Source of the DNA: Geminicoccaceae bacterium
GTDB taxonomy: Bacteria > Pseudomonadota > Alphaproteobacteria > Geminicoccales > Geminicoccaceae
Assembly (NCBI GenBank): GCA_020446285.1
Contig: JAGREZ010000408.1
Location: 1 to 12,283, forward strand
Reading direction: 5' to 3'
Length of the DNA: 12,283 bases
Shown: positions 1 through 11,329 of the stretch, piece by piece
Layout: each line of letters begins with the position of its first letter
Numbering within the stretch: the first letter of the stretch is position 1
Notes under the pieces: model-generated
Databases searched by the model: none
Seen by the model: only the letters and a program-made list of their open reading frames with translations
What the model was told of the DNA's origin: nothing
Program-made: the position numbers and the translations under genes

Positions 1-632
1 ACATGCGCCCAGCGGGTGGTTTCATTGACGGAATAGTAGGGCACATACTGGAAGACCCGGTCATGCGACAGGACCGCATTGGTCAGATTGTCGAGAATGA
101 CCACATCGTCATCGAGATAGACCGCCAGCACGGCATGGGCGAGATCACGCAGCGTGTCCTGGACGACCACCATCCGCAGCCGCTCCACCGGAAAACCGAC
201 GCTGCGCAGCGAGACATATTTCATGATCGCGTAGTCCTCGCAATCGCCGGAGCGCCTGATGAACTCGATCGGGCTCGCCCAATAGTCGCTGCGGCCATAG
301 TTCTCGCTGTCCGGCCGATAGCGCCACTGATTGACGAAACGATTGATCTTGCTCACCTGCTCGCGCGGTGCCGCACCCTCGAGACCCTCGAGAAGGGCCT
401 GCCACGCCATCACGCCCCTGGTCGGGCACTCCTTCGCATTGCTGCTGCACTTGTTGTAGACATCGCGTTCATTTTCAATCTTTTCGAGAACATCTCTCCA
501 TTTTGGCAATGCCTGATGAGACTCCGCACGCAACTCCGCAGTACCGAAGAGAGCGACGGGAACAACAGCCATGGCCGAATTGAACGGTGCAATTATAGTC
601 AACAAAAGAATAATTCTGGCCAGATTGAACAT
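1..632 (-). CDS. Periplasmic bacterial transglutaminase-like cysteine peptidase, 3' end cut by window edge
   Basis: I translated this gene by hand on the minus strand. It runs open for 210 codons from ATG at 632 to the window edge. Residues 1-22 (MFNLARIILLLTIIAPFNSAMA) form a short Sec signal peptide with a likely cleavage after A22, so the enzyme should act in the periplasm. The fold is the bacterial transglutaminase-like cysteine proteinase family (DUF920/peptidase C93, the LapG family). Its catalytic triad is visible: Cys131 in GDCEDYA, His166 in DLAHAVL and Asp181 in VILDNLT. The motif WRYRPDSENYG (103-113), just before the Cys domain, is also typical. AGGGA lies about 9 nt before the ATG. 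LapG of Pseudomonas cleaves a surface adhesin, but many alphaproteobacterial members have no known target and no LapD/adhesin partner is visible here. Its own promoter probably lies in the AT-richer gap at 633-848. Family assignment is firm; the substrate is unknown. Confidence 0.9.
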   Translation of the reverse strand, partial: MFNLARIILLLTIIAPFNSAMAVVPVALFGTAELRAESHQALPKWRDVLEKIENERDVYNKCSSNAKECPTRGVMAWQALLEGLEGAAPREQVSKINRFVNQWRYRPDSENYGRSDYWASPIEFIRRSGDCEDYAIMKYVSLRSVGFPVERLRMVVVQDTLRDLAHAVLAVYLDDDVVILDNLTNAVLSHDRVFQYVPYYSVNETTRWAH

Positions 633-848
633 GGTGTTCTTCCCTATTTGGCGGTTCATCCGCCTGCGCTTGTGTCGTGAGCGCATATTGCGATTTGAAA
701 GTGAATAAAGTTTTTACAGATCGCGCGACCATGGAAAAGCGGTACTCGAGTGCATTCGTTTGAGGCGATTTTTTTTCTTCACCCCGTACCGACAGCTACG
801 CCTTGTACTTTTTATCGTTTGATTACAATATGTTAGAATTTTTCCCGT

Positions 849-1595
849 TCACGGCATCAGCGAGCCGCCATTGACCTCGATGATCTGGCCGGTGAGGTAT
901 CCGCCAAGCGTCGGGCTCGCGAGGTAGAGGAAGGCACCGGCGCAATCATCGCCGGTCCCCAGACGCCGGAGCGGAATCCGCTTGCGGGTGGCTTCGAGCT
1001 TCTCCGCGCTCGAATAGACCTCGTGGAAATAGGTGTCGATCGTGCCGGGCGAGACCGCGTTGACGCGGATGCCCTGCGGTGCGAGCTCCGTTGCCAGCGA
1101 CCGGGTGAAGGTCGAGACGAAGCCCTTGGAGGCGGCATAGAGCGAGGATCCGGCACTGCCGCCGGCGCGCGCGGAGATCGAGGTGACGTTGATGATCGCA
1201 CCGCGACTGGCCGCAAGCGCCGGCAGGGCCTGCCGGCAGGCCACCACCACCGAGCGCGCATTGAGATCGAACACGGCGTCGATATCGGCGTCGCGCATTC
1301 CGTCGAGCGGGATCCGCGCCACCATGTGACCGGCATTGTTGACCAGTATGTCGAGCCCGCCGAGATGGTCGATGGCCTCCTCGACGACGCGGGCGACATC
1401 CGCCATGCGGGTGAAATCGCCCTGAAGCAGGCAGGAATGGACGATCGCGTTCGCCTCGCCCGGTTCGCTGTTGTAGTGAAGGGCCAGGTGCGCGCCGGCA
1501 TTGGCGAAGGCGCGGGCCGCCGCCGCGCCGATCCCGCGGCTCGCTCCCGTAACGAGAATCTTCCTGCCCGCCAGTCCCGGATCGATCGTTGCCAT
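849..1595 (-). CDS. Classical SDR-family NAD(P)-dependent oxidoreductase (FabG-like)
   Basis: This 248-residue protein has the usual length of a classical short-chain dehydrogenase. Visible motifs, in order, are the cofactor loop TGASRGIG (16-23), NNAG (86-89), structural Asn112, catalytic Ser139 in NVTSIS, and the YAASK active site with Tyr153 and Lys157. The PG motif follows at 183-184, and a C-terminal YLTGQIIEVNGG stretch is typical of FabG-like enzymes. The second strand ends HYNS without an acidic residue, which weakly favours NADP(H). I chose ATG 1595 because the Rossmann strand starts about 10 residues later and AAGGGGG lies 8 nt upstream. A longer reading from 1667 would add 24 residues before the fold. 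It is divergent from the HAD gene and has no obvious operon partner. It may act on a sugar, polyol or 3-oxoacyl substrate; the sequence does not decide. No link to the kinase/aldolase operon is proven. Confidence 0.9.
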   Translation of the reverse strand: MATIDPGLAGRKILVTGASRGIGAAAARAFANAGAHLALHYNSEPGEANAIVHSCLLQGDFTRMADVARVVEEAIDHLGGLDILVNNAGHMVARIPLDGMRDADIDAVFDLNARSVVVACRQALPALAASRGAIINVTSISARAGGSAGSSLYAASKGFVSTFTRSLATELAPQGIRVNAVSPGTIDTYFHEVYSSAEKLEATRKRIPLRRLGTGDDCAGAFLYLASPTLGGYLTGQIIEVNGGSLMP

Positions 1596-1738
1596 GCGCG
1601 TACCCCCTTGTCGCCATCGTTGCCTGCATGGCAGCGTAACAGCGTGTTGGCGAAATGCCGACAGCACAGCGGTTCCTGACCGCCCGGAAATGGGCTAGGA
1701 CGACATCGTCCCGACCACGCTTCAAGCAGGTTCCAGCC
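1596..1738. promoter_or_regulatory. Divergent intergenic region (SDR / HAD) with a 14-bp palindrome
   Basis: These 143 nt separate two divergent genes and should hold both promoters. The clearest element is GGACGA-CA-TCGTCC at 1698-1711, with two perfect 6-bp arms around a 2-nt centre, 28 nt before the chosen GTG of the HAD gene. A smaller dyad, TGCC-TGCAT-GGCA, lies at about 1625-1637. I found no convincing -35/-10 pair on either strand. The palindrome could be an operator; this is inference from symmetry and position only. Confidence 0.35.
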
Positions 1739-2605
1739 GTGTCCAGACCGCTTTCCGTCGACGGTATCCGTGAATTCGCCGATCGTTTCGATGCCTTCAT
1801 CATCGACCAGTGGGGCGTCCTGCATGACGGTGCGGCGCCCTATCCCGGCAGCATCGACGCCCTGCAGGCGCTGCATGAGCGCGGCAAGAAGCTGGTCCTG
1901 TTGACCAATTCCGGCCGCAGGGCGTCGCTCAACCGCGAGCGGATGACGGAACTCGGCTTCGACACGGGCATTCTCGAGGGCATCGTCACCTCGGGCGAAG
2001 CCGCCTGGAAAGCCCTCTCTGACCGCGCGTTCGCACCGTTCGACAGCCTCGGGCGGCGCTGCTACCTCGTTACCAGCGGCAACGATACGGGTCCGGTCGA
2101 GGGACTCGACATCGAGGTCGTCGATGATGTCGGCAAGGCCGATTTCCTCTATTTCACCTTTCTGCAATCCTCGATCGAGGACATTCCCCGCTTCGATCCC
2201 CTGCTCGAACGGGCGCTGGAGCGCCGGCTGCCGTTTCTCTGCTCCAATCCCGACCGCGTCGCCGTGAATGCCGGCGGAATGACCGCGGCTCCCGGCTCCA
2301 TCGCCGCGCGCTACGAGGCGATGGGCGGCGAGGTTGCCTATGTCGGCAAGCCGCACCGGCCGATCTACACGGCCTGCCTTGCGCATCTGGGTGGCATCGC
2401 GCATGATGGAATCGTCTGTATCGGCGATTCGATCGAACACGACATCAAGGGAGCCAATGACATGGGTTTTGCCTCCTGTTTCATCCGCAATGGCATCCAT
2501 CGGGGCGCGTTCGGCAAGGGTGTGGACGAGGTGTCGGTCATCGACCAGCTCACGGCCGAACATGGCGGCCGCCCGGATTTCGCGCTTGCGGATTTTCGCT
2601 GGTGA
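1739..2605 (+). CDS. HAD-superfamily class IIA hydrolase (TIGR01459-like)
   Basis: This 288-residue protein belongs to the HAD phosphatases with a class IIA cap. Motif I is DQWGVLHDG, with nucleophile Asp23; motif II is LLTNSGR (Thr56); Lys204 lies in VGKPHRPIY; motif IV is CIGDSIEHDIKGAND, with Asp230 and Asp235. The second motif I aspartate (the D+2 general acid of NagD-like enzymes) is Trp25 here. To my knowledge this substitution is characteristic of the TIGR01459 subfamily, common in Alphaproteobacteria, whose substrate is unknown. The C-terminal GDS/DIKGA block is intact, so Mg2+ binding should be kept. I prefer GTG 1739, preceded by AGCAGG. An in-frame ATG at 1655 would add 28 unconserved-looking residues and cover the palindrome at 1698-1711. 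It overlaps the next gene by 4 nt (GTGA), so the two are translationally coupled. Family is confident; start codon is moderate. Confidence 0.85.
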   Translation: MSRPLSVDGIREFADRFDAFIIDQWGVLHDGAAPYPGSIDALQALHERGKKLVLLTNSGRRASLNRERMTELGFDTGILEGIVTSGEAAWKALSDRAFAPFDSLGRRCYLVTSGNDTGPVEGLDIEVVDDVGKADFLYFTFLQSSIEDIPRFDPLLERALERRLPFLCSNPDRVAVNAGGMTAAPGSIAARYEAMGGEVAYVGKPHRPIYTACLAHLGGIAHDGIVCIGDSIEHDIKGANDMGFASCFIRNGIHRGAFGKGVDEVSVIDQLTAEHGGRPDFALADFRW

Positions 2606-3090
2606 CCTTCGGCATCCGGTCCTACCGCGAGGAGGATCGGAACGCGGTGGAGGAACTGCTCGCCCTCGCCTTTCCCACCCCGACCGAGTCCGATCTCGTC
2701 GGCGAACTCCGGCAGGCCGGGGACGCGGTCATCGAACTGGTGGCGACCATCGACGGCAGGGTCTGCGGGCATGTCATGCTCAGCCGGCTGAATGCCCCGA
2801 TGCACGCACTGGCACTCGCACCGGTGTCGGTGCATCCAGCACATCAGGGCAAACGGATCGGCGACAGGCTCGTTCATCAGGCCATCGACGAGGCGCGCGG
2901 GCTCGGTGTCCAGCTCCTTCTGGCCCTCGGCGAACCGGAATATCACGGCCGCTTCGGTTTCTCGCAAGCCGACGCCAGCGGTTATGACTGCGTCTACGCC
3001 GCGCACACGCTCCTCGCGCTCAGGCTCGATCCCGACTGCCCGCGCGAGGGTCGGATCATCTACGCCGCACCGTTCAACGCGCTCGGCTGA
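2602..3090 (+). CDS. GNAT-family N-acetyltransferase (YhbS-like)
   Basis: This 162-residue single-domain acetyltransferase begins IRSYREEDRNAVEELLALAF, the usual beta1-alpha1 opening of the GNAT fold. The acetyl-CoA pyrophosphate loop is QGKRIG (82-87), inside VSVHPAHQGKRIGDRL. The later GEPEYHGRFGF stretch (110-120) is typical of the YhbS/COG3153 group. The GTG start at 2602 shares four bases with the TGA of the HAD gene, so it depends on translational coupling. The 3' end runs 17 nt into the convergent dehydrogenase gene. The acyl acceptor is unknown; YhbS-like enzymes are mostly uncharacterised. The pairing with a HAD phosphatase suggests a shared small-molecule role but does not identify it. 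Confidence 0.87.
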   Translation: MTFGIRSYREEDRNAVEELLALAFPTPTESDLVGELRQAGDAVIELVATIDGRVCGHVMLSRLNAPMHALALAPVSVHPAHQGKRIGDRLVHQAIDEARGLGVQLLLALGEPEYHGRFGFSQADASGYDCVYAAHTLLALRLDPDCPREGRIIYAAPFNALG

Positions 3091-4006
3091 GTACCGCCAG
3101 CACATTGTCGGCGGTGACCGATGACACGCGCACATTGCTCTCGCCGGTCACGCCGGCGATATGCGGGGTGAGGATCAGATTGTCGATGCCGGCAAGGATG
3201 GCGGCCGCATCCCTGCCGAGCGGCTCGTTCTCGAAGACGTCGAGGGCAGCACCGGCAAGCGGGCCCGAGCGCAGCGCCGCGGCGAGCGCGTGCTCGTCCA
3301 CCACGCCGCCACGCGCGGCATTGATGAGGATCGAACCCTCGCGCATGGCGGCGAGCCTGTCGCCGTTGACGAGGTGGCGCGTGCCCTCGGTGAGCGGCAC
3401 ATGCAGCGACACGACATCCGCCTCGGCGAACAGCGCGTCGAGCCCGCGATGCCCGAGACCGTCCCAGGCCGGATCGTGGACACTCACGAACGGATCGTGG
3501 GCGATCACCTCCATGCCGAGCGCACGCGCCTTCGCCGCCACCCCCCTTGCGATCGAGCCGAGGCCGACGAGGCCCATGCAGCGCCCCGAAAGCTCTCCGC
3601 CCATGAGCCGGCCGCGCGGCCACTCGCCGGCGAGCATCGCCTCCTTCGAATGATAGGCACCGCGCAGGAGCATCATCGCCGTGGCGATCACATATTCGAC
3701 GACGGAAAGGTCGTTGGCACCGCTCGCCGGGCAGACCTCGATCCCGCGCTCGCCGCAGGCGTCCAGATCGATATTGTCGAGACCGACGCCGAGCCGGCCC
3801 ACCACCTCGAGCTTCGCTGCCGCCTCCAGCAGGGCACCGCGCACCTGCGTCCTGTTGCGCACGACCAGCGCGCGGCAATCGGCGAGGAGTCCGGCGAGAT
3901 CGTCCGGCCGGTCGACCAGGGCCGGATCGTAGACCGTTGCATGCGCCTCCTTCAGTCGGGCGACGGCGGCCTCGTCCATGAATTCGCTGATGACGATCGT
4001 GGCCAT
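3074..4006 (-). CDS. D-isomer-specific 2-hydroxyacid dehydrogenase, NAD-dependent (SerA/SlcC-like)
   Basis: This 310-residue protein has both halves of the D-2-hydroxyacid dehydrogenase fold. The N-terminal part holds the substrate loop GRLGVGLDNIDL (70-81). The Rossmann motif is GLVGLGSIARGVA (145-157), where the usual third glycine is Ala153. Asp171 at the end of the second strand (IAHDPF) favours NAD over NADP. The catalytic set is Arg232 (NAARGG), Glu261 (FENEP) and His282 (TPHIAG). ATG 4006 is preceded by GGGGGAG at normal spacing; longer in-frame starts lack one. The gene is divergent from the sugar kinase across 127 nt and probably co-regulated with it. The family includes phosphoglycerate and hydroxypyruvate reductases and also SlcC, the (S)-sulfolactate dehydrogenase. 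The TPHIAGVTGESNVR ending fits short hydroxyacid dehydrogenases rather than SerA with an ACT domain. The sulfolactate role is an inference from context, not a motif. Confidence 0.88.
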   Translation of the reverse strand: MATIVISEFMDEAAVARLKEAHATVYDPALVDRPDDLAGLLADCRALVVRNRTQVRGALLEAAAKLEVVGRLGVGLDNIDLDACGERGIEVCPASGANDLSVVEYVIATAMMLLRGAYHSKEAMLAGEWPRGRLMGGELSGRCMGLVGLGSIARGVAAKARALGMEVIAHDPFVSVHDPAWDGLGHRGLDALFAEADVVSLHVPLTEGTRHLVNGDRLAAMREGSILINAARGGVVDEHALAAALRSGPLAGAALDVFENEPLGRDAAAILAGIDNLILTPHIAGVTGESNVRVSSVTADNVLAVLSRAR

Positions 4007-4133
4007 GGATGCGTTCTCCCCCATTTGCTGCGTGGACCGGCTTGCACGGAACGTGTTATCGCCCTTTCCTGACATACGACAAGCCACCTCGCTCCCCCCC
4101 GAGGACGGGTTGTCAGGGGAGTGAACGGGGCTC
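4007..4133. promoter_or_regulatory. Divergent regulatory region (hydroxyacid dehydrogenase / sugar kinase) with nested dyads
   Basis: This 127-nt gap lies between two divergent starts. It holds an inverted repeat, CCTGACA (4068-4074) and TGTCAGG (4111-4117), with a smaller dyad inside it, CCTCG (4087-4091) and CGAGG (4100-4104), around a C-rich loop. GACA also recurs as GACATACGACA at 4071-4081. A third short dyad, CACG-GAA-CGTG, lies at about 4045-4055. The outer arm at 4111-4117 sits just before the kinase ribosome binding site, so a bound regulator or an RNA stem there could affect kinase expression. No regulator gene is in the window, and I cannot assign -35/-10 boxes with confidence. Confidence 0.4.
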
Positions 4134-5030
4134 ATGACGCGTATTCTGACAAGCGGTATCACCGTCATCGACATCATGTTGCCGGTCGACCGGTTGCCGT
4201 CGGGTGATTGCAAGACGCTGGCCACGGGCCGGCAGGACGTGATCGGCGGGATCGCCGCCAATGCAGCACTGACGGTCAAGCGGCTGGGCGGAACGCCGGT
4301 GCTGTCCACCCGTCTGGGTCATGATTCCACCGGCGACGAGATCATGCGGCAGCTCGACGCCGCCGGCATCGACACGCGTGCGGTGGAATGGGTCAACGGC
4401 GCGCGCAGCTCGCTCACCGCCGCCATCGTCGACGCCGATGGCGCGCGGATGCTCATCAACCATACCGACGCGCATCTGCATCGCGGCCCGCCCGATCTCG
4501 ACGGAATCGAGGTGGACGGCGTCATTACCGACACGCGCTGGCTCGACGGCGCCTTCGCCTCGCTTCGCCATGCGCGCGAACGCGGCCTGCCGGGGCTGCT
4601 GGATTATGACATGCCGCCGGACGATAATCTGCGGTCATGGGAACTCATTGCCGAGGCCAGCCATGTCGCGTTCGGCGCCCAGGGCCTTCGCCTGCTCACC
4701 GGCATCGACGATCCGGCGGCCGGCCTCGCCGCCGTGCGCGAGCGTTTTTCCGGCTGGCTCGCGGTCACATGCGGCGGTGACGGCGTCTACTGGCTGGAAG
4801 GCGACCGCGTCCGGCACCTGCCGGCCTTCAGGGTGACGGTGGTCGATACGCTGGCTGCGGGCGATGTCTTTCACGGAGCCCTTGCGCTCGCGCTTGCGGA
4901 AGGGATGGAGATGCACGAGGCGCTGCGTTTTGCTTCCGGCGCCGCGGCGATCAAGTGCATGCATTTCGGCGGTGGTGCCGGCATTCCGACCCGCGCCGAA
5001 CTCGAACGCTTTCTGGCGGAGCATGGATGA
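4134..5030 (+). CDS. PfkB/ribokinase-family sugar kinase, sulfofructose kinase (YihV)-like
   Basis: This 298-residue PfkB kinase opens GITVIDIMLPVDRLP (8-22) and has the GG-hinge GGIAAN (38-43). The ATP and catalytic loop is DTLAAGDVFHGAL, with catalytic Asp245; the usual TGAGD is LAAGD here. It is collinear with E. coli YihV as I remember that sequence, with equal length and close matches at DTRWLDGA (YihV DVRWHDGA), VVDTLAAGDVFHGALA and RFASGAAAIKC. Lys27, Asn109 and Arg135 fall where I recall YihV's sulfonate-binding Lys27, Asn109 and Arg138. It would phosphorylate a ketose, plausibly 6-deoxy-6-sulfofructose, for the aldolase encoded next. AGGGGAG lies upstream of ATG 4134. The stop is followed closely by the aldolase start, and an alternative aldolase start overlaps it. 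A fructose or tagatose-6-phosphate substrate is the alternative. PfkB family is certain; sulfosugar specificity is inference. Confidence 0.9.
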   Translation: MTRILTSGITVIDIMLPVDRLPSGDCKTLATGRQDVIGGIAANAALTVKRLGGTPVLSTRLGHDSTGDEIMRQLDAAGIDTRAVEWVNGARSSLTAAIVDADGARMLINHTDAHLHRGPPDLDGIEVDGVITDTRWLDGAFASLRHARERGLPGLLDYDMPPDDNLRSWELIAEASHVAFGAQGLRLLTGIDDPAAGLAAVRERFSGWLAVTCGGDGVYWLEGDRVRHLPAFRVTVVDTLAAGDVFHGALALALAEGMEMHEALRFASGAAAIKCMHFGGGAGIPTRAELERFLAEHG

Positions 5031-5064
5031 GCATGATCCGCGCGGCGCCGACGGGGATGAACCG

Positions 5065-6138
5065 ATGACCAGGACGACACCCGGCAAGCTCTGGGGAATG
5101 CGCCGGCTGGCGGACGATGCCGGCTTCTTCCGCATGACCGCACTCGACCAGCGCCCGCCGATCATGAACCCGATCCGCGAACTCAGGCGGACCCCCGAAG
5201 CGCCCGATCAGGATGTCGCGGCGGTGAAGCGGGTGATCGCGGAACAGCTCGCTCCGGTTTCAACGGCAGTGCTCATGGATCCGATCTGGGCCTATTCGGC
5301 CTGCATCGACGTGATCCCGCCATCGAAGGGCCTGATCCTCACGCTCGAGGATCATCGCTTCGCGGACGGGACGGGCGGACGGCGCTCGCGCAATATCGAC
5401 GACTGGAGCGTGGAGAAGATCCGGCGCATCGGCGGCGATGCGGTGAAGGTTCTCGCATGGTATCGCCCCGATGCCGCAAGCGATGTCATCGAGCACCAGA
5501 AGGATTACGTCCGGGCGATCGGCGACGAATGCCGGCGCCTCGACATTGCCTTCGTCTTCGAGCTTCTGGTCTATCCCTTCGCGGACAGGGGCAACGATTA
5601 CGAGGAGGATCCCGCCAAGCGCCCGGAACTGGTGATCGACAGTGTGCGCACCTTCGCCGATCCGCAATACGGGGTCGACATCTTCAAGCTGGAGAGCCCC
5701 ATCCCGGCAAAGGAAGTCCCCGAGCCGGGAAGTTCCGCGTCCGCAGAGGTGCAGGCGCTGTTCGATGCGCTCGGCGAGGCTGCGGGCCGGCCCTGGGTGA
5801 TGCTTTCCGCCGGCGCCGGCAAGGCCGATTTCAAGCGGGTGCTGCATCACGCCTTCAAGGCCGGTGCCTCGGGCTTTCTCGCCGGCCGGGCGATCTGGCT
5901 CGACGCATTCGGGCACTTTCCCGACCTCGATGCCATGGCGGCCGATCTCGCCGGTGACGGACGCGCCTACATGGAGGATCTGCAGAGCCTGACAGCAGCG
6001 GCGGCACGGCCGCTCGCCGAGGCTTTGGCATACGGACCGGGGGCAGACAGTCCGGGGGCATACGCTCCGGGCTTCGCCGGTGCCGGTTTCGAGCTGCCGC
6101 GCAGCTATGGCGGCATGACCGGGAGCAGTGCAGGGTGA
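5065..6138 (+). CDS. Class I aldolase of the LacD/YihT family (tagatose-1,6-bisphosphate or sulfofructose-phosphate aldolase-like)
   Basis: This 357-residue protein is a TIM-barrel aldolase of COG3684, the family of LacD and YihT. Visible motifs are KLWGMRRLAD (8-17), MTALDQRPP (24-32), the barrel strand GGDAVKVLAWYRPD (123-136) with conserved Lys128, FVFELLVYP (163-171), and DIFKLESP (205-212). Lys208 in that last motif is the expected Schiff-base lysine. The final barrel block is GASGFLAGRAIW. It should split a ketose 1-phosphate derivative into DHAP and an aldehyde. It is longer than YihT (about 290) and nearer LacD. The extra C-terminus is a Gly/Pro/Ala-rich tail after about residue 320, with small imperfect repeats. 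ATG 5065 has GGGGA about 8 nt upstream. ATG 5023, overlapping the kinase stop, is possible but its GGAG is too close. The 3' end overlaps the permease GTG by 4 nt. Family is firm; substrate is undecided between sulfo- and phospho-sugars. Confidence 0.88.
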   Translation: MTRTTPGKLWGMRRLADDAGFFRMTALDQRPPIMNPIRELRRTPEAPDQDVAAVKRVIAEQLAPVSTAVLMDPIWAYSACIDVIPPSKGLILTLEDHRFADGTGGRRSRNIDDWSVEKIRRIGGDAVKVLAWYRPDAASDVIEHQKDYVRAIGDECRRLDIAFVFELLVYPFADRGNDYEEDPAKRPELVIDSVRTFADPQYGVDIFKLESPIPAKEVPEPGSSASAEVQALFDALGEAAGRPWVMLSAGAGKADFKRVLHHAFKAGASGFLAGRAIWLDAFGHFPDLDAMAADLAGDGRAYMEDLQSLTAAAARPLAEALAYGPGADSPGAYAPGFAGAGFELPRSYGGMTGSSAG

Positions 6139-6920
6139 ACGAGAAGGCGCTGAGGATCGTTGCGCCGCTCGGCATCGGCCTGCTGTTGCTGGCCGGCTGG
6201 GAGACGCTCGTGCTCGTTCGCGGCATCCCGCCCTATATCCTGCCGGCTCCGAGCCTCGTTGCCACCACCATGATCGCCGAATGGTCCAATCTCTGGCCGT
6301 CGCTCATGATCACCCTGCAGATCACCACGATCGCCCTCATCGCCGCGATCGTCGGCGGTGGCGGGCTCGCGATCCTGTTCTCCATGTGGCGACTGGTGGA
6401 GCTCTCGCTCTTTCCCTATGCCGTCATCCTGCAGGTGACTCCCGTGGTCGCCATCGCACCGCTGCTGCTCATCTATATCGACAACACGCTGCTCGTGGTG
6501 GTGATCGTCGCCTGGATCGTCGCCTTCTTCCCGATCCTCTCCAACACCACGCTCGGGCTGAACTCGGCCGATCACAATCTGCGCTCGCTGTTCGAGCTTT
6601 ATGGCGCCACGCGCTGGCAGGCGCTGCGCCACCTGCGCATTCCCTCGGCCATGCCCTATTTCCTCGGCGGCCTGCGCATCGCCGGCGGGCTGTCGCTGAT
6701 CGGTGCCGTCGTCGCCGAATATGTGGCCGGGACATCGGGCACCGGCACCGGCCTCGCCTTTCGCATCCTCGAGGCCGGCTATCGCCTGCAGATCCCCAAG
6801 ATGTTCGCCGCCCTCATGCTGCTGGCATTCACCGGCATCGCCATCTTCCTGTTCTTTTCCGCCATCAGCCATCTGGCATTGCGCAGCTGGCACGAGAGCG
6901 CCGTCAAACGAGAAAGCTGA
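6135..6920 (+). CDS. NitT/TauT-family ABC transporter permease (SsuC/TauC-like)
   Basis: This 261-residue inner-membrane protein has about six hydrophobic segments. The first is near residues 8-30 and is followed by GIPPYILPAPSLV, typical of the nitrate/taurine/sulfonate permease group. The cytoplasmic EAA loop is ELYGATRWQALRHLRIPSAM (from residue 154), which docks the ATPase. GTG 6135 shares four bases with the aldolase TGA, and GGGAG lies about 9 nt upstream, so the two are coupled. The gene sits inside a sugar kinase/aldolase operon without the ATPase and periplasmic binding protein that normally flank such a permease; these must lie elsewhere or be borrowed. Members import taurine, alkanesulfonates, nitrate, riboflavin or pyrimidine precursors, so an organosulfonate is attractive here but not proven. 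Confidence 0.85.
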   Translation: MNEKALRIVAPLGIGLLLLAGWETLVLVRGIPPYILPAPSLVATTMIAEWSNLWPSLMITLQITTIALIAAIVGGGGLAILFSMWRLVELSLFPYAVILQVTPVVAIAPLLLIYIDNTLLVVVIVAWIVAFFPILSNTTLGLNSADHNLRSLFELYGATRWQALRHLRIPSAMPYFLGGLRIAGGLSLIGAVVAEYVAGTSGTGTGLAFRILEAGYRLQIPKMFAALMLLAFTGIAIFLFFSAISHLALRSWHESAVKRES

Positions 6921-6929
6921 ACAGACATC

Positions 6930-7991
6930 ATGACCGACCGCACGCCGCGTTTTTCCGCTTCCGCCCTTCGCGATTTCGCCACATCGCTCATGCTCGCCTC
7001 GGGCTTCGAGAAAGAGAAGGCCGAAGTGACCGCGCGGCATCTCGTCGATGCCGACATGATGGGACACGACACCCACGGCCTGAACCTGCTCGTCGCCTAT
7101 GTCGATCACGCGGCCTCCGGCGGCATGACGCTCACCGGCGATGTCGAGGTGGTCGCCGACCGGCCCGCCGCCATCACCTGGGACGGGCGCAACCTTCCGG
7201 GCGTGTGGGTGACCGACAAGGCCGTCGATACCGCCATCGCACGCGCGCGCATCTACGGGCAGGCGAGCATCGCCATCCGCCGCAGCCATCACATCGCCTG
7301 CCTGCAGACCTATCTGCCCAAGGCGACCGAACAGGGCATGATGGTGACCATTCTCTCATCCGATCCGCATGTCGCCACCGTCGCCCCCTTCGGCGGGCGC
7401 AGGCCGCTCTACACACCCGATCCGCTGGCCTGCGGCATTCCCACCGACGGCGATCCGATCCTTGTCGACATCAGCGCCTCGATCACCACCAACGGCATGA
7501 GCGGCCGTCTCGCAGCCGAGGGCAAACGTCTGCACTTTCCGGCCTATCTCGATGCCGAAGGCAATCTCACCGACGATCCCGCCGTGATCGAGGCCGATCC
7601 GCCCGGCTCGATCCTGCCCGTCGGCGGTCTCGAATATGGCCACAAGGGCTACGGCCTCGCGCTCATGATCGAGGCGGCGACGCAGGGGCTTTCCGGCTTC
7701 GGCCGCTCGGCGCAGGCGAAGGGCTGGGGTGCTTCGGTGTTCGTGCAGGTGACCGATCCGGCGGCATTCGGCGGGCTCGATGCGTTTGCCCGCGAGACCG
7801 GCTGGCTCGCCCGTGCCTGCCGCGAGAACCCGCCGCGTCCGGGGGTCGATGCGGTGCGGCTGCCGGGCGAACGCGCGCTCATGCGGATGCGCGAGGCGCG
7901 CGAGCATGGCGTTCCGCTGTTTCCCGGCATCATGGACCGGCTGACGAATAAGGCCCGAAGCCTCGACATCGCACCGCCCGAGCCATGCTAG
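6930..7991 (+). CDS. Ldh2-family (malate/L-lactate/sulfolactate-type) NAD(P)-dependent 2-hydroxyacid dehydrogenase
   Basis: This 353-residue protein is a member of the malate/L-lactate dehydrogenase superfamily (PF02615), which is unrelated to Rossmann dehydrogenases. The signature MMGHDTHGL spans residues 43-51, with His49. The active-site stretch IRRSHHIACLQTYL includes Ser119 and His120. PDPLACGIPTDGDPILVDIS is the typical nucleotide-binding core, and GHKGYGLALMIE lies near residue 235. The family includes ComC, the (R)-sulfolactate dehydrogenase, as well as ureidoglycolate, malate and proline-pathway enzymes. The Arg found after SHG in malate-type members is absent here (HGLNLL), so malate itself is less likely. 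The start is 9 nt after the permease stop with only a weak GAAAG, suggesting reinitiation. The 3' end overlaps the MFS gene by 7 nt. Together with the divergent D-2-hydroxyacid dehydrogenase it could interconvert the two stereoisomers of one hydroxyacid (inference). Confidence 0.87.
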   Translation: MTDRTPRFSASALRDFATSLMLASGFEKEKAEVTARHLVDADMMGHDTHGLNLLVAYVDHAASGGMTLTGDVEVVADRPAAITWDGRNLPGVWVTDKAVDTAIARARIYGQASIAIRRSHHIACLQTYLPKATEQGMMVTILSSDPHVATVAPFGGRRPLYTPDPLACGIPTDGDPILVDISASITTNGMSGRLAAEGKRLHFPAYLDAEGNLTDDPAVIEADPPGSILPVGGLEYGHKGYGLALMIEAATQGLSGFGRSAQAKGWGASVFVQVTDPAAFGGLDAFARETGWLARACRENPPRPGVDAVRLPGERALMRMREAREHGVPLFPGIMDRLTNKARSLDIAPPEPC

Positions 7992-9196
7992 TCCGGGCCG
8001 CACGCACGGGCGGATCCGATCTCGAGGTCATCGGCCTCGTCACCGTCGCGCATTTCTTCTCGCATCTCTACATCCTCGCCCTGCCGCCGCTCTTTCCCGT
8101 GCTCACAGGCGAACTCGGCTACACCGCAACCCAGCTCGGCATCGCCGTTGCCATCTTCAACCTCATCACCGCGGCCCTGCAGGCACCGATGGGGCTCGCC
8201 GTCGACCGCTACGGCTCGGCGCTCATTCTCGCCATGGGTCAGGCATTCTCGGGTCTCGCCTTCATCGTCATCGGCATCCTGCCGGGCTATTCCGCGCTGC
8301 TGCTGGCCATGGTCATCGGCGGTATCGGCAATGCCGTCTACCATCCCGCCGATTACGCCATCCTCGCCGGCCGCGTACGCAGTTCGAGGGCCGGGCGGGC
8401 GTTCTCCATCCACACATTCGGCGGCTATCTCGGCTTTGCCGTGGCACCGCCGGTGATGATCGGCCTGCACAGCATCGCCGGCTGGCAGACGGCGGTCATC
8501 ACCGTCGGCGTGATCGGGTTCGCCTTCGCCTTCGTGCTCTTCGCCCGCAGGAACCATCTCCAGCCGCCGAAGGTCCGGGGCGACGATGCCGGCGGTGCCG
8601 TTTCGGCGGACAAGTGGAAATTCCTGTTATCGGGACCGATCCTCCTCGCGTTCCTCTTCTTCGTCGCCATCGCCATGTCGCAGACGGGCTTTACCAATTT
8701 CGGCATTCTCGCCCTCAACCGGTTGCAGGAACTGGATCTGGCGCAGGCGGCCCTGCCGATCACGGCCTATCTCGTGACGAGTGCCGCGGGCGTGCTCATG
8801 GGTGGCTGGGTCGCCGACAGGATCCGCGACCATGACCGCTTCGTCATCATCTCGTCGATCGTCGCAGCACTGCTCACCCTGCCGCTCGCCTTCATGCAGC
8901 TGCCGTTTCCCGTGCTCTTCGTCCTCCTGGCACTCATCGGCGTCAGCAGCGGCATCATCGCCCCGTCACGCGACATGATCGTGCGCAAGCTGGCGCCGGC
9001 GGGCAGCACCGGCACGGTCTTCGGCTTCGTCACCACGGGCTTCAACGCCGGCGGCCTGATAGCACCACCGCTTCTGGGAATCGCCATCGACATGGGTCAT
9101 CCGGCCTGGGTGTTCATCACCGCGGCCATCTTCTTCCTCGTCATCCCGGTCACGCTCGGTTTCGGGCACGGGCGGAGCAAGGCCCCGGCCGGCTGA
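7985..9196 (+). CDS. MFS transporter, 12 predicted membrane segments
   Basis: This 403-residue protein is a major facilitator superfamily permease with two groups of six hydrophobic helices. A hydrophilic central loop (about residues 180-215) contains HLQPPKVRGDDAGGAVSADK. The motif A loop between helices 2 and 3 is GLAVDRYGSAL, and GGWVADRIRDHDR is its partner in the second half. GGIGNAVYHPADYAIL in helix 4 resembles the fosmidomycin-resistance/YnfM-like exporters. The ATG overlaps the dehydrogenase stop by 7 nt, so it is the last coupled gene of the operon. It could import the pathway substrate or export an end product such as a hydroxyacid or sulfonate. No motif fixes the direction or the substrate. 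It is not of the GPH type to which YihO belongs. Confidence 0.87.
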   Translation: MLVRAARTGGSDLEVIGLVTVAHFFSHLYILALPPLFPVLTGELGYTATQLGIAVAIFNLITAALQAPMGLAVDRYGSALILAMGQAFSGLAFIVIGILPGYSALLLAMVIGGIGNAVYHPADYAILAGRVRSSRAGRAFSIHTFGGYLGFAVAPPVMIGLHSIAGWQTAVITVGVIGFAFAFVLFARRNHLQPPKVRGDDAGGAVSADKWKFLLSGPILLAFLFFVAIAMSQTGFTNFGILALNRLQELDLAQAALPITAYLVTSAAGVLMGGWVADRIRDHDRFVIISSIVAALLTLPLAFMQLPFPVLFVLLALIGVSSGIIAPSRDMIVRKLAPAGSTGTVFGFVTTGFNAGGLIAPPLLGIAIDMGHPAWVFITAAIFFLVIPVTLGFGHGRSKAPAG

Positions 9197-9228
9197 CGGT
9201 CCGCAACCCCGAAGCCTTCGTCAGCCGG
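9189..9228. terminator. Ten-bp perfect inverted repeat at the MFS/maoC-like convergent junction
   Basis: CCGGCTGACG (9189-9198) and CGTCAGCCGG (9219-9228) form a perfect 10-bp stem with a 20-nt loop. The left arm covers the MFS stop codon, and the right arm lies about 20 nt beyond the stop of the opposing gene. The position between converging genes suits a bidirectional terminator or transcript barrier. There is no U-tract on either side, so it is not a canonical intrinsic terminator. Confidence 0.45.
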
Positions 9229-9233
9229 TACCC

Positions 9234-9264
9234 GTCATGCCCCGCCGTCATGCCCCGCCGTCAT
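9234..9264. repeat. Tandem 13-bp direct repeat, about 2.4 copies
   Basis: The unit GTCATGCCCCGCC occurs at 9234-9246 and 9247-9259 without a gap, followed by a partial GTCAT at 9260-9264. It covers the stop codon and last residues (NDGGA) of the MaoC-like gene and lies just outside the hairpin at 9189-9228. It looks like a small slippage duplication at the gene end. The reading frame of the hydratase is intact. Confidence 0.8.
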
Positions 9265-9688
9265 TGGCGACCCAGGCGAGAATGTGCGTGGCGACGGCGA
9301 CGAGCTTGCCGTCCTGGTTGGTGATCTCGATGCTCGAACGGGAGCGGCGTCTTTCCGTGTCGATCTCGCTTGTCCGGTAGGTCACGGTGATGGTGTCGCC
9401 GATGAAGACGGGGGCAAGGAAACGGATCCGGTCATAGCCGAGGGAGACGGCGGTTTCCGCCTGCGTGTGCCGGCCTTCGAGAATCCGGGTCGAGCAATTG
9501 GACATGAAGCCGACGAGCAGGGCACCATGGGCAATGCGCTTGCCGTAGGCCGATTGCGCCATCAGCGCCTCGTTGACATGGTTGGGTGCAAGATCGCCCG
9601 TGATCCCGGCGAACAGATACACATCGCTCTCGGATACGGTCTTGGAAAAGGTGGCCTCGTCGCCCGGCCGGATCGGCAGATCGGTCAT
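9248..9688 (-). CDS. MaoC-like (R)-specific enoyl-CoA hydratase, hot-dog fold
   Basis: This 146-residue single hot-dog domain has the hydratase-2 signature TGDLAPNHVNE, with the catalytic pair Asp32 and His37. RIAHGALL, the helix that lines the active site in PhaJ-type enzymes, follows. The length matches PhaJ (about 135-155). ATG 9688 is preceded by AAGGGGGAG at good spacing. The family hydrates trans-2-enoyl-CoA to (R)-3-hydroxyacyl-CoA, but many members have other acyl-CoA substrates. It stands alone: it converges with the MFS gene and diverges from the binding-protein gene, so it shares only an upstream region with the sugar transporter. A role in the neighbouring pathway is not evident. 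Confidence 0.88.
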   Translation of the reverse strand: MTDLPIRPGDEATFSKTVSESDVYLFAGITGDLAPNHVNEALMAQSAYGKRIAHGALLVGFMSNCSTRILEGRHTQAETAVSLGYDRIRFLAPVFIGDTITVTYRTSEIDTERRRSRSSIEITNQDGKLVAVATHILAWVANDGGA

Positions 9689-9889
9689 CTCATTCTCCCC
9701 CTTGAGAGCTGATATAGCGTCCTCTGGAGGGCTGATATAGCGTCGGGATCATCGTTTGGCGACTGTGCCGGCAACCCGTTTTTCGCCTGTCGGCAACATG
9801 TTCCGTTGCAATCGCAACCCGCTTTTGGCAGGCTCGCTGCGTAAATCCGTTCCTGTCCTGCGGGAGCGAGAAACAGGGAGCTTTTCACG
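9689..9889. promoter_or_regulatory. Divergent regulatory region (maoC-like / sugar ABC operon) rich in repeats
   Basis: These 201 nt hold several short ordered motifs. GTTGC-AATC-GCAAC at 9805-9818 is a perfect 5-bp dyad. GCAAC recurs at 9771 and 9793 and as part of this dyad at 9814. GCAACCCG(T/C)TTTT is repeated at 9771-9783 and 9814-9826, 43 nt apart. Near the maoC-like gene, a 14-bp direct repeat is described separately. On the minus strand TCGCCA-17 nt-TATATC, with its TATATC in the second repeat copy, is a weak promoter candidate. The GCAAC/GTTGC cluster lies 60-120 nt before the binding-protein start, a position that suits an operator for a LacI- or GntR-type sugar regulator (inference). 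Confidence 0.4.
9708..9744. repeat. 14-bp direct repeat with 23-bp period upstream of the maoC-like gene
   Basis: GCTGATATAGCGTC occurs identically at 9708-9721 and 9731-9744, separated by 9 nt. A 23-bp period is close to two helical turns, so two protein subunits could bind the same face. The repeat starts 20 nt before the MaoC-like ATG and would lie in its leader or core promoter. It may equally be a recent local duplication. Confidence 0.75.
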
Positions 9890-11230
9890 ATGCCTTTGCG
9901 TCTGACACGTCGCGATTCCATGATTCTCGGTGCTGGAGCACTCGCCGGAACGGCTCTGGGCGGGCCTGTCGGCCTGCGCGCGCAGATACCGGTAGCGGAG
10001 GCCACGCCGCCCGATCTGCCGATCGAGGATGGCGCCAGCCTGACCCTCCTGCGCCCGACGAAATTCGTCGCCACGGATGAGGAAATCTGGCTCGCCAACA
10101 CCAGGAAGTTCACCGAAGTGACGGGCGTGCCGGTCAAGGTGGAATTCGAGGGCTGGGAGGACATTCCGACGAAGACCGCCGTGGCCGCCAATGTCGGCTC
10201 GGGTCCGGATGTCGTGATCGGCTTTGCCGACAATCCGTTCCTCTACAAGGACAAGCTGCACGATCTCTCCGATATCACCGCCTATCTCGGCGCGAAGTAT
10301 GGTGGCTGGTGGCCGCTCGCCGAGCGCTATGGCACCGATCCGGACACGGGCAAGTGGATCGCCATGCCGGTGGGCGCCTCGGGTGGCCGTATCGTCTATC
10401 GCAAGTCGATGATCGAGGCCGCGGGCTTCAGCGAGGTTCCGACGGATGTCGACGGATTCCTCGAGATGTCGACGGCACTTCAGGCCAACGGCACGCCGAT
10501 GGGCCTCGCACTCGGCAATGCACCGGGCGACGGCAATGCGTGGACGCACTGGCTGGTCTGGGCGCATGGCGGCAAGATGGCCGATGATGACAACAATCTC
10601 ATCATCAACAGCCCGGAGACCATCGCCGGCCTCGAATATGGCAAGAAGCTCTTCGAGACCTTCATTCCGGGCACCCTCTCCTGGCTCGACGCCAACAACA
10701 ACAAGGCGTTCCTCGCCGGGGAAATCTCGCTGACGCAGAACGGCATCTCCGTCTATTACGCGGCCAAGACCTCGGAAGATGCCAAGATCAAGGAGATGGC
10801 CGAGGACATCTATCATGCGCGCATGCCGGTCGGTCCGGTGGGAATCCCGACCGAGCGCTGCCTCGTCTTCAACTCGATGATCTTCCAGCACACGCCCTAT
10901 CCGAACGCCGCCAAGGCCTATCTGATGTTCATGATGGAGAGCGATCAGTATGCCGAGTGGCTGGAGAAGGGCATCGGCTACTTCAACCATCCGCTGCAGG
11001 CCTATGATGCCAGCCCCGTCTGGACGAACGATCCCAAGCACGAGGCCTACAAGCATGTGATGAAGGACGCCGTCTGGGACGGCTATTCCGGCCGTCTCGG
11101 CCCGCAGAGTGCCGCCACCCTCGCCGACTTCATCATGGTCCAGATGGTGGCATCCGTCTGCTCCGGCCAGGCGACGGCGGAGGAGGCCGCGGCCGAAGCC
11201 CAGCGCCGCGCCAGCCGCTACTACCGCTAG
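9890..11230 (+). CDS. CUT1-type sugar ABC transporter substrate-binding protein with Tat-like leader
   Basis: This 446-residue periplasmic protein resembles family 1 extracellular solute-binding proteins (MalE/UgpB class). The leader contains TRRDSMILGAGALAG with twin arginines at residues 7-8, and a plausible cleavage follows GLRA at residue 31, so export is probably by Tat. The mature part has FTEVTGVPVKVEFEGWEDIPTK and GSGPDVVIGF, the typical first-lobe pattern. Later come GLALGNAPGDGNAWTHW, KAFLAGEISLTQNGI and VFNSMIF, typical of the hinge and second lobe. AGGGAG lies about 9 nt before ATG 9890. A permease gene of the matching family follows after a hairpin-rich spacer. Sugar, sugar-alcohol or glycoside ligands are all possible. 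A sulfoquinovosyl-glycerol-type ligand, as for SmoF of Agrobacterium, would fit the neighbouring operon, but I see no diagnostic residue. Confidence 0.88.
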   Translation: MPLRLTRRDSMILGAGALAGTALGGPVGLRAQIPVAEATPPDLPIEDGASLTLLRPTKFVATDEEIWLANTRKFTEVTGVPVKVEFEGWEDIPTKTAVAANVGSGPDVVIGFADNPFLYKDKLHDLSDITAYLGAKYGGWWPLAERYGTDPDTGKWIAMPVGASGGRIVYRKSMIEAAGFSEVPTDVDGFLEMSTALQANGTPMGLALGNAPGDGNAWTHWLVWAHGGKMADDDNNLIINSPETIAGLEYGKKLFETFIPGTLSWLDANNNKAFLAGEISLTQNGISVYYAAKTSEDAKIKEMAEDIYHARMPVGPVGIPTERCLVFNSMIFQHTPYPNAAKAYLMFMMESDQYAEWLEKGIGYFNHPLQAYDASPVWTNDPKHEAYKHVMKDAVWDGYSGRLGPQSAATLADFIMVQMVASVCSGQATAEEAAAEAQRRASRYYR

Positions 11231-11243
11231 CACGATCCGGACA

Positions 11244-11295
11244 GCGCTCCCTTCGGGGGACGCCCCTGCCCGTCGGTCCCGTCCGGCGGGCAGGG
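11244..11295 (+). other. Intercistronic double hairpin between binding-protein and permease genes
   Basis: Two stems follow each other in the 99-nt spacer. The first is GCG-C-TCCC (11244-11251) with GGGA-CGC (11257-11263), with one bulged C and a TTCGG loop. The second is a perfect 9-bp stem, CCCTGCCCG (11264-11272) with CGGGCAGGG (11287-11295), around a 14-nt loop. No U-tract follows. Such stems after a binding-protein gene usually block 3' exonucleases or attenuate transcription, so that more binding protein than permease is made, as in malE-malF. That role is inferred here. Confidence 0.6.
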
Positions 11296-11329
11296 AGTTC
11301 CTTCCTTCACTCGCAAGCGGAGACAGAGG

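Follow-up and report, generated by a model that had tools for sequence, protein, structure and literature searches.

We asked whether a gene cluster in a member of the Geminicoccaceae could take part in the breakdown of sulfosugars. The stretch of DNA analyzed (the window: bases 1–12283 of the 12906-base contig C178) comes from a 4.2 Mb genome in 619 contigs that is 87.5% complete. A sequence-only reading had proposed a sulfosugar/sulfolactate catabolic island, in which a YihV-like kinase and a class I aldolase share a coupled operon with an ATP-binding cassette (ABC) permease, an Ldh2-family dehydrogenase and a major facilitator superfamily (MFS) transporter, and an SlcC-family dehydrogenase is divergent from them. 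Genes were called from open reading frames (ORFs) and family scans (10 of about 13 window proteins were scanned), and all six were present where that reading had placed them. The genes from kinase to MFS share a strand, and neighbors overlap or are separated by no more than 34 bases, a layout that bears out the coupled operon, and, as had been noted, no YihU-type reductase was matched among the scanned proteins. Three of the six genes (kinase, aldolase and SlcC-type) support a sulfosugar role and the other three do not, leaving the proposal partly supported. With modest confidence, and from sequence comparison, we favor a partial, dispersed module of the sulfoglycolytic Embden-Meyerhof-Parnas (sulfo-EMP) type that would be tied to sulfolactate oxidation.

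The Kinase Is YihV-Like

The best match of the kinase in the Protein Data Bank (PDB) was the E. coli sulfofructose kinase (7ag6, 199.8 bits; 51 PDB sequences matched), followed by a sugar kinase of no stated function (2rbc, 175.5 bits) and then by ribokinases (at most 87 bits). It shares 41% identity with E. coli YihV over 298 residues, 79–85% with relatives in Geminicoccaceae records and 27% with four PfkB paralogs of its own genome. An alignment of 99 kinases showed that it keeps K27, R105, N109, D133, R135 (R138 in YihV), D244 and H247. The YihV residues K27, N109 and R138, which we take to be the sulfonate contacts, are all lacking in LacC, and across 79 rows from relative loci K27 is Lys in 75, N109 is Asn in 62 and R135 is Arg in 76.

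In a quick tree of all 99 sequences, for which the very long branch of LacC served as root, the window kinase and YihV shared a 39-row set (SH-aLRT 99), with many of the cluster rows outside it. In a more careful tree of 36 rows the window kinase fell among 25 rows that include cluster rows but exclude YihV (82/85), and the position of YihV, at the base of all 31 YihV-like rows, was not resolved. These 31 rows stood apart from LacC and the four own-genome PfkB paralogs (87/95, not starred). From the match scores, residues and trees together, the assignment of the kinase as YihV-like, and not as LacC or a ribokinase, therefore holds as far as sequence comparison goes, and the label given to it on first reading stands. 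The YihV-type sulfofructose kinase that marks sulfo-EMP thus has a counterpart in the window, by sequence only.

The Aldolase Belongs to a Third Class I Subfamily

The aldolase passed the PRK12858 subfamily model (NF009498; 331.8 bits, cutoff 184) and fell below the cutoff of the lacD model (112 bits, cutoff 432). Its identity is 27% to YihT, 33% to a LacD and 52–61% to the 80 best-listed relatives. The best PDB entry was 8tnf ('DUF2090 domain-containing protein', 350 bits), with LacD entries at 105–116 bits and YihT at 78–83 bits; the PDB name of 8tnf does not point to a function, and searching the literature for this entry returned nothing relevant. In this aldolase family the aligned lysine forms the Schiff base. 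K208 of the window protein aligns with K193 of YihT and K205 of LacD, and R275 with R253 and R278, respectively; all 78 relative rows of the alignment have this lysine. By its model scores the enzyme falls outside both LacD and YihT, in a third subfamily of class I. The earlier 'LacD/YihT-family' label was correct as to the class I family but too narrow as to the subfamily, and for a sulfofructose-1-phosphate aldolase the family and the lysine are as expected, yet the subfamily is PRK12858 and not that of YihT. A tagatose (LacC/LacD) pathway was rejected on the family scores and the kinase trees.

Such an aldolase was found, at 1e-60 or better, in four of the 31 family genomes (the source genome, G020, G022 and G024) and was lacking in G012; an order-level search returned the same 31 genomes and nothing further. 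The G020 relative (L017; contig C135, 1–1011) lies on a long branch and has Ala at the position of the Schiff-base Lys, and on the same 3.8-kb contig 525 bases separate the kinase frame from the HAD frame, which suggests decay or a new role for that locus.

A Divergent SlcC-Type Dehydrogenase and a GH188-Type Gene on Another Contig

The divergent D-2-hydroxyacid dehydrogenase shares 58–63% identity with its counterparts in the 14 top-scoring loci (38 loci gave a match; maximum 65%). In a tblastn search of plasmids, eight of 2966 records fell in the 60–80% band (60–64%), and the next among the matches listed were at 39–47%. We examined four of these plasmid regions, three of them annotated and that of Sinorhizobium mexicanum unannotated. 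In Methylobacterium oryzae and Paracoccus aestuarii an Ldh-family gene immediately follows the SlcC-type gene, and two UxaA-family genes and exporters of the sulfite/sulfate type are nearby. Paracoccus ferrooxidans has the same SlcC-type and Ldh-family order and a TauE-type gene near, with no UxaA gene in the stretch. A quick tree grouped the window dehydrogenase with plasmid and sulfosugar-cluster rows (41 rows, SH-aLRT 96), apart from two phosphoglycerate dehydrogenase-family proteins and E. coli SerA. A gene of this type beside kinase and aldolase recurs in L015, L016, L039, L073, L080 and L099. The plasmid identities, neighborhoods and tree placement agree with the SlcC label proposed for this gene, and we regard it as a candidate SlcC-type enzyme; the name itself is taken from the literature because the comparison set held no biochemically tested SlcC sequence.

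The source genome also encodes a candidate GH188-type sulfoquinovosidase, on a different contig (C286 of the source genome, G000; L152, 3246–4310). This 354-residue Gfo/Idh protein stands, by eye, behind a MetH-like gene. Its best PDB matches were 8qc3, 8qc2 and 8zn9 (376–390 bits, with 386–390 to 8qc2 and 8qc3), and the next scored 78. Published work names 8QC2 as a GH188 enzyme with R166, L170 and K172 as sulfonate contacts (PMC11465081), and the C286 protein keeps the R, L and K of this sulfonate-binding loop. A GH188-type gene was also found in G028, another genome of the family (55%), and the best matches in G022, G024, G020 and G012 were at 29% or less. A feed from this enzyme into a sulfoquinovose monooxygenase (sulfo-SMO) route found no support: a Salipiger SmoC-type query (LLM-class, labeled from its neighbors) gave no match at 1e-10 in six genomes, in a search run without a positive control.

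Relatives of the Aldolase Are Often Joined to Sulfolactate Genes

Named bacterial genomes were scanned with an alignment of the four aldolases from family genomes. The scan gave 399 relatives, and the analysis went on with the best 80. Two of these duplicated the G022 and G024 loci and were excluded, leaving 78 named loci. ORFs of at least 70 residues from these loci, from L015–L017 and from the window were clustered, and clusters were labeled through ten representatives by Pfam and five proteins by NCBIfam. The counts below are lower bounds because many loci end at contig ends.

A kinase was present in 70/78 loci and a sulfoquinovose-isomerase-like gene in 68/78, whilst 40 held a Gfo/Idh gene and 22 a GH31 gene; kinase, isomerase and either Gfo/Idh or GH31 occurred together in 55. 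SlcC-type genes were found in 31 loci, SuyA-type in 21, SuyB-type in 20, ComC-type Ldh2 in 16 and a succinate-semialdehyde dehydrogenase-like aldehyde dehydrogenase in 13. Thirteen of the 78 loci (L034, L047, L056, L059, L064, L066, L067, L072, L082, L084, L086, L090 and L091) hold kinase, aldolase, isomerase, Gfo/Idh or GH31, and SlcC-, ComC- and SuyB-type genes within about 21 kb or less; L082 comes from Hoeflea poritis and L067 from Exilibacterium tricleocarpae, both cultured. The union of the kinase-aldolase group with sulfolactate genes is therefore supported for a good part of the group.

The isomerase representative matched a single NCBIfam model, that of the sulfoquinovose isomerase SftI, at 257 bits and so below the cutoff of 700; its Pfam match was Fucose_iso_C (30.3 bits). 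No curated SuyA or SuyB model matched the cluster proteins: the SuyB-type representative scored 131 bits against a galactarate dehydratase model (cutoff 731) and takes its label from 75% identity to a protein of the Paracoccus aestuarii locus, where SlcC- and ComC-type genes occur, and the SuyA-type one matched a SAF domain (23.8 bits). For the ComC-type label NF040650 was the best model, yet scores were below cutoff (184 and 164 bits, cutoff 500). The Gfo/Idh cluster was assigned to GH188 from one representative with a 56% match to the source-genome protein, and GH31 genes were counted by family, irrespective of sulfoquinovosidase specificity.

A YihV-like kinase with an aldolase of the third type is found in many alphaproteobacterial records. 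Plasmid clusters of Shinella and Rhizobium combine sugar ABC genes, kinase, aldolase, a short-chain dehydrogenase/reductase (SDR), an enolase-superfamily gene and a TSUP exporter, to which the Shinella cluster adds a succinate-semialdehyde dehydrogenase. A Devosia plasmid cluster has no sulfonate genes by annotation. Plasmid pDEIPE01 of Deinococcus peraridilitoris (L130) carries sugar ABC genes, a fucose isomerase, a PfkB kinase, the aldolase and a TIM-barrel glycosidase-type gene one after another, a sulfo-EMP-like cluster in the Deinococcota.

The Remaining Operon Genes and Their Surroundings

The Ldh2 protein missed the cutoffs of both the L-sulfolactate dehydrogenase model (NF040650; 133 bits, cutoff 500) and the malate/lactate/ureidoglycolate dehydrogenase model PRK10098 (172.8 bits, cutoff 336), the latter presumably the HcxB family. 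It groups with Ldh2 of Chelatococcus and Pararhizobium (100/99) and then with E. coli HcxB (95/89), whilst 20 ComC-type rows form a separate group (95/92). The proposed membership in the ComC family was right at the Pfam level but not as orthology; with its low NF040650 score and separate clade, Ldh2 was ruled out as ComC. At 1e-100 or better it was found in 13/385 genomes of the class, the source genome included. Within the stretches compared, an adjacent MFS gene was seen in one of the other 12 (G022), permease, kinase and aldolase were absent, and two had weak dehydrogenase matches of 28–32%. The G022 pair (Ldh2 57%, MFS 49%) lies beside an alanine dehydrogenase gene, away from kinase and aldolase, and its 12.5-kb stretch gave no match to the window permease, kinase or aldolase. 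In Chelatococcus and Pararhizobium (L126, L127) the window-type Ldh2 stands beside phosphoglycerate dehydrogenase and dihydrodipicolinate synthase-like genes; this pair of D-2-hydroxyacid dehydrogenase and Ldh2 could act on some 2-hydroxyacid.

The permease had been called SsuC/TauC-type, which was borne out at superfamily level but not by the type models (36.8 bits for a cutoff of 347, and 45.9 bits for one of 342). It stands without an ATPase or binding protein in the operon. Of the 12 plasmid relatives listed, four were examined. In each the next gene codes for an amidohydrolase or a cytosine deaminase, and FAD-oxidase and creatininase-family genes occur in the vicinity; these neighborhoods give no support for a sulfonate importer. 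Neither permease nor MFS carries a sulfonate signal. Because the Ldh2-MFS pair stands apart in G022 and the permease relatives sit in amidohydrolase operons, permease, Ldh2 and MFS, half of the operon, look like a local addition from other pathways.

The features of the window are listed in Table 1. An alternative in-frame ATG upstream of the aldolase, at 5023, would make it overlap the kinase 3' end. The HAD-IIA hydrolase is a conserved neighbor within the family and probably lies outside the pathway. The sugar ABC genes at the right end, after which another permease-like frame continues past the contig edge, gave no support as a sulfosugar importer: the binding protein is 53% identical to an S. 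meliloti protein that has no sulfonate gene names nearby, and its match in the loci compared was no better than partial, at 21%.

Table 1. Features of the 12,283-base window.
Feature	Position	Strand	Remarks
Transglutaminase-like gene	3–686		by eye
SDR gene	849–1667		ORF and family scan
HAD-IIA hydrolase (TIGR01459)	1655–2605	+	same neighbor in L015, L016, L017
GNAT-like gene	2602–3090		by eye
D-2-hydroxyacid dehydrogenase, candidate SlcC-type (S)-sulfolactate dehydrogenase	3074–4006	-	divergent from kinase
YihV-like PfkB kinase, candidate sulfofructose (sulfoketohexose) kinase	4134–5030	+
Class I aldolase, PRK12858 subfamily, candidate sulfofructose-1-phosphate aldolase	5065–6138	+
ABC permease (BPD_transp_1)	6135–6920	+	start overlaps aldolase stop
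Ldh2-family dehydrogenase, not ComC type	6930–7991	+
MFS transporter	7985–9196	+	paired with Ldh2
MaoC gene	9248–9688	-
Carbohydrate (sugar) ABC binding protein	9890–11230	+	family scan
ABC permease-like gene	11330–12283	+	25–38% identity to sugar ABC permeases

The term 'island' found no support. G+C is 0.56–0.69 in 13 window genes and 0.62–0.66 in eight other stretches of the same genome, and the order HAD-SlcC-kinase-aldolase is common to the window, G022 and G024, which belong to the same family of genomes. Neither base composition nor gene order lends support to horizontal acquisition.

Missing Steps and Altered Residues

Several observations weigh against a sulfosugar module, and the first of these are gaps in the source genome. 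A sulfoquinovose isomerase of the YihS or the SqvD/SftI type was not found in the 87% complete genome, which showed no PF07221 (AGE-type) isomerase; the sole FucI-like match is partial, at 28–29%, on contig C253 (L118, 1414–3199). That gene scores 78.7 bits against the sulfoquinovose isomerase model and stands beside a split transketolase. The regions of its closest plasmid relatives (46–47%), in Sodalis and Rahnella, were both examined and hold a split transketolase with a carbohydrate kinase (FGGY-family in Sodalis), so the gene was rejected as the missing isomerase on the ground that its relatives belong to a transketolase/carbohydrate kinase type of operon. GH31 was likewise not found in the source genome. 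Nor was a close SuyB: the search gave four UxaA-family matches, the best at 35–36% versus 77% in G012, and gammaproteobacterial-cluster and Paracoccus SuyB-type proteins share 75%. Two of the four belong to two-gene UxaA-family pairs, an arrangement like that of SuyAB, on C5 (L027, 1281–4221), beside a TctA-type transporter gene, and on C90 (L024, 2807–4320), beside an enolase-superfamily-like gene (by eye); as candidates for SuyAB they share only 32–33% identity with a Paracoccus SuyB-type protein. The AGE-type isomerase, GH31 and close SuyB looked for elsewhere in this incomplete genome were not found, whereas another sulfosugar gene, of GH188 type, was. No sulfolactaldehyde reductase or dehydrogenase was seen among the 10 window proteins scanned, and a GabD-like aldehyde dehydrogenase (55%) elsewhere in the genome has, by eye, HtpG- and glutathione reductase-like neighbors.

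In G012, another genome of the family, a locus on contig C57 (L119) has no kinase-aldolase pair but holds GntR and a PF03601 membrane protein, which we take to be YeiH-type, together with genes of SuyA, SuyB, SlcC and ComC type.

The other opposing points concern the family and the proteins themselves. G022 (in one contig), G024 and G020 carry the aldolase without orthologue-level GH188, isomerase or SuyB; the Schiff-base Lys is replaced in G020, where no SlcC gene was found on the 3.8-kb contig. Gly occupies positions 181 and 281 in the window kinase and in ten near relatives, in place of the Ser and Arg of YihV and of 73/79 locus rows, and R135 is replaced by Leu in one near relative (P0019). 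On the closeness of YihV to the window kinase the two trees do not agree. Lastly, a kinase and aldolase of the same Pfam families lie in a sulfonate cluster of Paracoccus strain Merri but were not induced on sulfofucose (PMC12421959).

A Proposed Route and Its Alternatives

With family membership, gene order and kept catalytic residues in hand, we infer the substrates and the order of the steps. The GH188-type enzyme on C286 would free sulfoquinovose from a sulfoquinovoside. The kinase would phosphorylate sulfofructose (or its 4-epimer) at C1, and the class I aldolase would split the resulting sulfofructose 1-phosphate into dihydroxyacetone phosphate and sulfolactaldehyde. Sulfolactaldehyde would be converted to (S)-sulfolactate, a step for which the GabD-like enzyme exists but has ordinary neighbors, and the SlcC-type enzyme would oxidize (S)-sulfolactate to sulfopyruvate. 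No specific enzyme was identified for sulfoquinovose isomerization, sulfolactaldehyde oxidation or C-S cleavage; these may lie in the missing part of the genome, be less related, or be absent. The idea of sulfo-EMP cleavage joined to sulfolactate metabolism is carried by the kinase, aldolase, SlcC-type and GH188-type genes but not by Ldh2, permease, MFS, isomerase or SuyB.

Some of the same gaps could mean that the module is a relic or has been repurposed, with isomerase, sulfolactaldehyde dehydrogenase and SuyAB lost and the kinase and aldolase decaying or serving another phosphoketose. We consider this unlikely, though it keeps real weight because G022, in one contig, is without isomerase and lyase and G020 has lost the catalytic Lys. 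The failure to find upstream and downstream genes at orthologue level in G022, G024 and G020, the lack of SlcC beside the G020 aldolase and the altered kinase positions 181 and 281 all fit it. The intact state of the window kinase, aldolase and SlcC-type gene, with catalytic residues kept, does not, nor does a GH188-type gene with its sulfonate loop in the same genome. Alternatively, kinase and aldolase might act on a non-sulfonated ketohexose together with Ldh2, permease and MFS, with the SlcC-type neighbor there by chance. The Devosia plasmid relatives, which have Edd and fructose-bisphosphatase and no annotated sulfonate genes, point that way, as do the closer pairwise identity of the aldolase to LacD than to YihT and the permease without a sulfonate signal. 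Such a role nonetheless appears improbable: relative loci in the majority of cases (55/78) combine the kinase with an isomerase-like gene and Gfo/Idh or GH31, the SlcC-type neighbor recurs in six loci, and the Ldh2-MFS pair is apart from kinase and aldolase in G022.

Complete mineralization of sulfoquinovose by this organism is very improbable. It would have isomerase, sulfolactaldehyde dehydrogenase and SuyAB unassembled (for instance beyond the contig end), or a C5 or C90 UxaA-family pair cleaving the C-S bond. The fragmented, incomplete assembly, the sugar ABC genes running off the contig, the Deinococcus cluster with sugar ABC genes beside isomerase, kinase and aldolase, and the pairs themselves, one beside a TctA-type transporter gene, are in its favor. 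On the other hand, several functions would all need to be missing from the assembly, the UxaA-family proteins are distant from the Paracoccus SuyB-type protein, and the S. meliloti counterpart of the sugar ABC binding protein has no sulfonate gene names near it, whilst the match of that binding protein in the loci compared is weak and partial. A distinct Geminicoccaceae variant of the pathway, with SlcC tied to kinase and aldolase, another Ldh2 replacing ComC in the role of second sulfolactate dehydrogenase, MFS exporting a C3 sulfonate instead of SuyAB cleavage, and the sulfoquinovosidase unlinked, also seems rather improbable. The partial, dispersed sulfo-EMP module tied to sulfolactate oxidation is the reading that we retain.

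Comparison With Known Systems

The sulfo-EMP systems of E. coli (yih) and Arthrobacter AK01/AK04 share with the window a YihV-like kinase and a class I aldolase, and the Arthrobacter locus is described as being, like the window locus, without a sulfolactaldehyde reductase (PMC8873060). The window differs in its aldolase subfamily (27% to YihT), in that a YihS-type isomerase was not found, and in having the SlcC-type gene beside the kinase. The actinobacterial clusters with a GH188 of the Y160 type have in common with the source genome a sulfofructose kinase, a sulfofructose-1-phosphate aldolase, a '3-phosphoglycerate dehydrogenase', likened here to the window SlcC-type enzyme by description only, and GH188; they also hold a fucose isomerase, a sulfolactaldehyde dehydrogenase and a sulfolactate sulfo-lyase (PMC11465081). 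In the source genome the GH188 gene is on another contig, and isomerase, lyase and sulfolactaldehyde dehydrogenase were not found in the locus. Cluster 2 of Paracoccus wurundjeri Merri pairs a PF00294 kinase and a PF01791 aldolase with SlcC, ComC and SuyAB (PMC12421959). Compared by description only, Merri uses an Entner-Doudoroff-type sulfofucose route and its pair was not induced, and the window is without ComC and SuyAB. With the SlcC/ComC/SuyAB sulfolactate system of Chromohalobacter and Paracoccus the window shares the SlcC-type gene, whereas its Ldh2 is of another clade and no close SuyB was found.

Joined sulfo-EMP/sulfolactate clusters are already in print as predictions (PMC11465081, PMC12421959): the actinobacterial cluster as a possible new sulfoglycolytic pathway (PMC11465081), and the Paracoccus cluster for its kinase and aldolase next to SlcC, ComC and SuyAB (PMC12421959). 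SuyAB has been noted in clusters of the sulfoglycolytic transaldolase (sulfo-TAL) pathway (PMC9594981), and a review describes hybrid sulfo-EMP sets in Proteobacteria as well as Actinobacteria (PMC12890257). Its table lists sulfo-EMP for Gammaproteobacteria and Actinobacteria, with 2,3-dihydroxypropane-1-sulfonate or sulfolactate as end products (PMC12890257). GH188 genes are reported in sulfo-EMP and other clusters, with examples that include Jannaschia and a Paracoccaceae bacterium (PMC10755693). Our literature search, with most subscription papers outside its scope, found no account of how widely the joined cluster occurs among Alphaproteobacteria and among Gammaproteobacteria of the Steroidobacteraceae/Nevskiaceae type, nor a Geminicoccaceae case.

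The window is a partial, weak example of this wider group. Because 13 of the 78 named loci, in Alpha- and Gammaproteobacteria, hold genes for the whole route to sulfite, they predict that single organisms may mineralize sulfoquinovose without cross-feeding.

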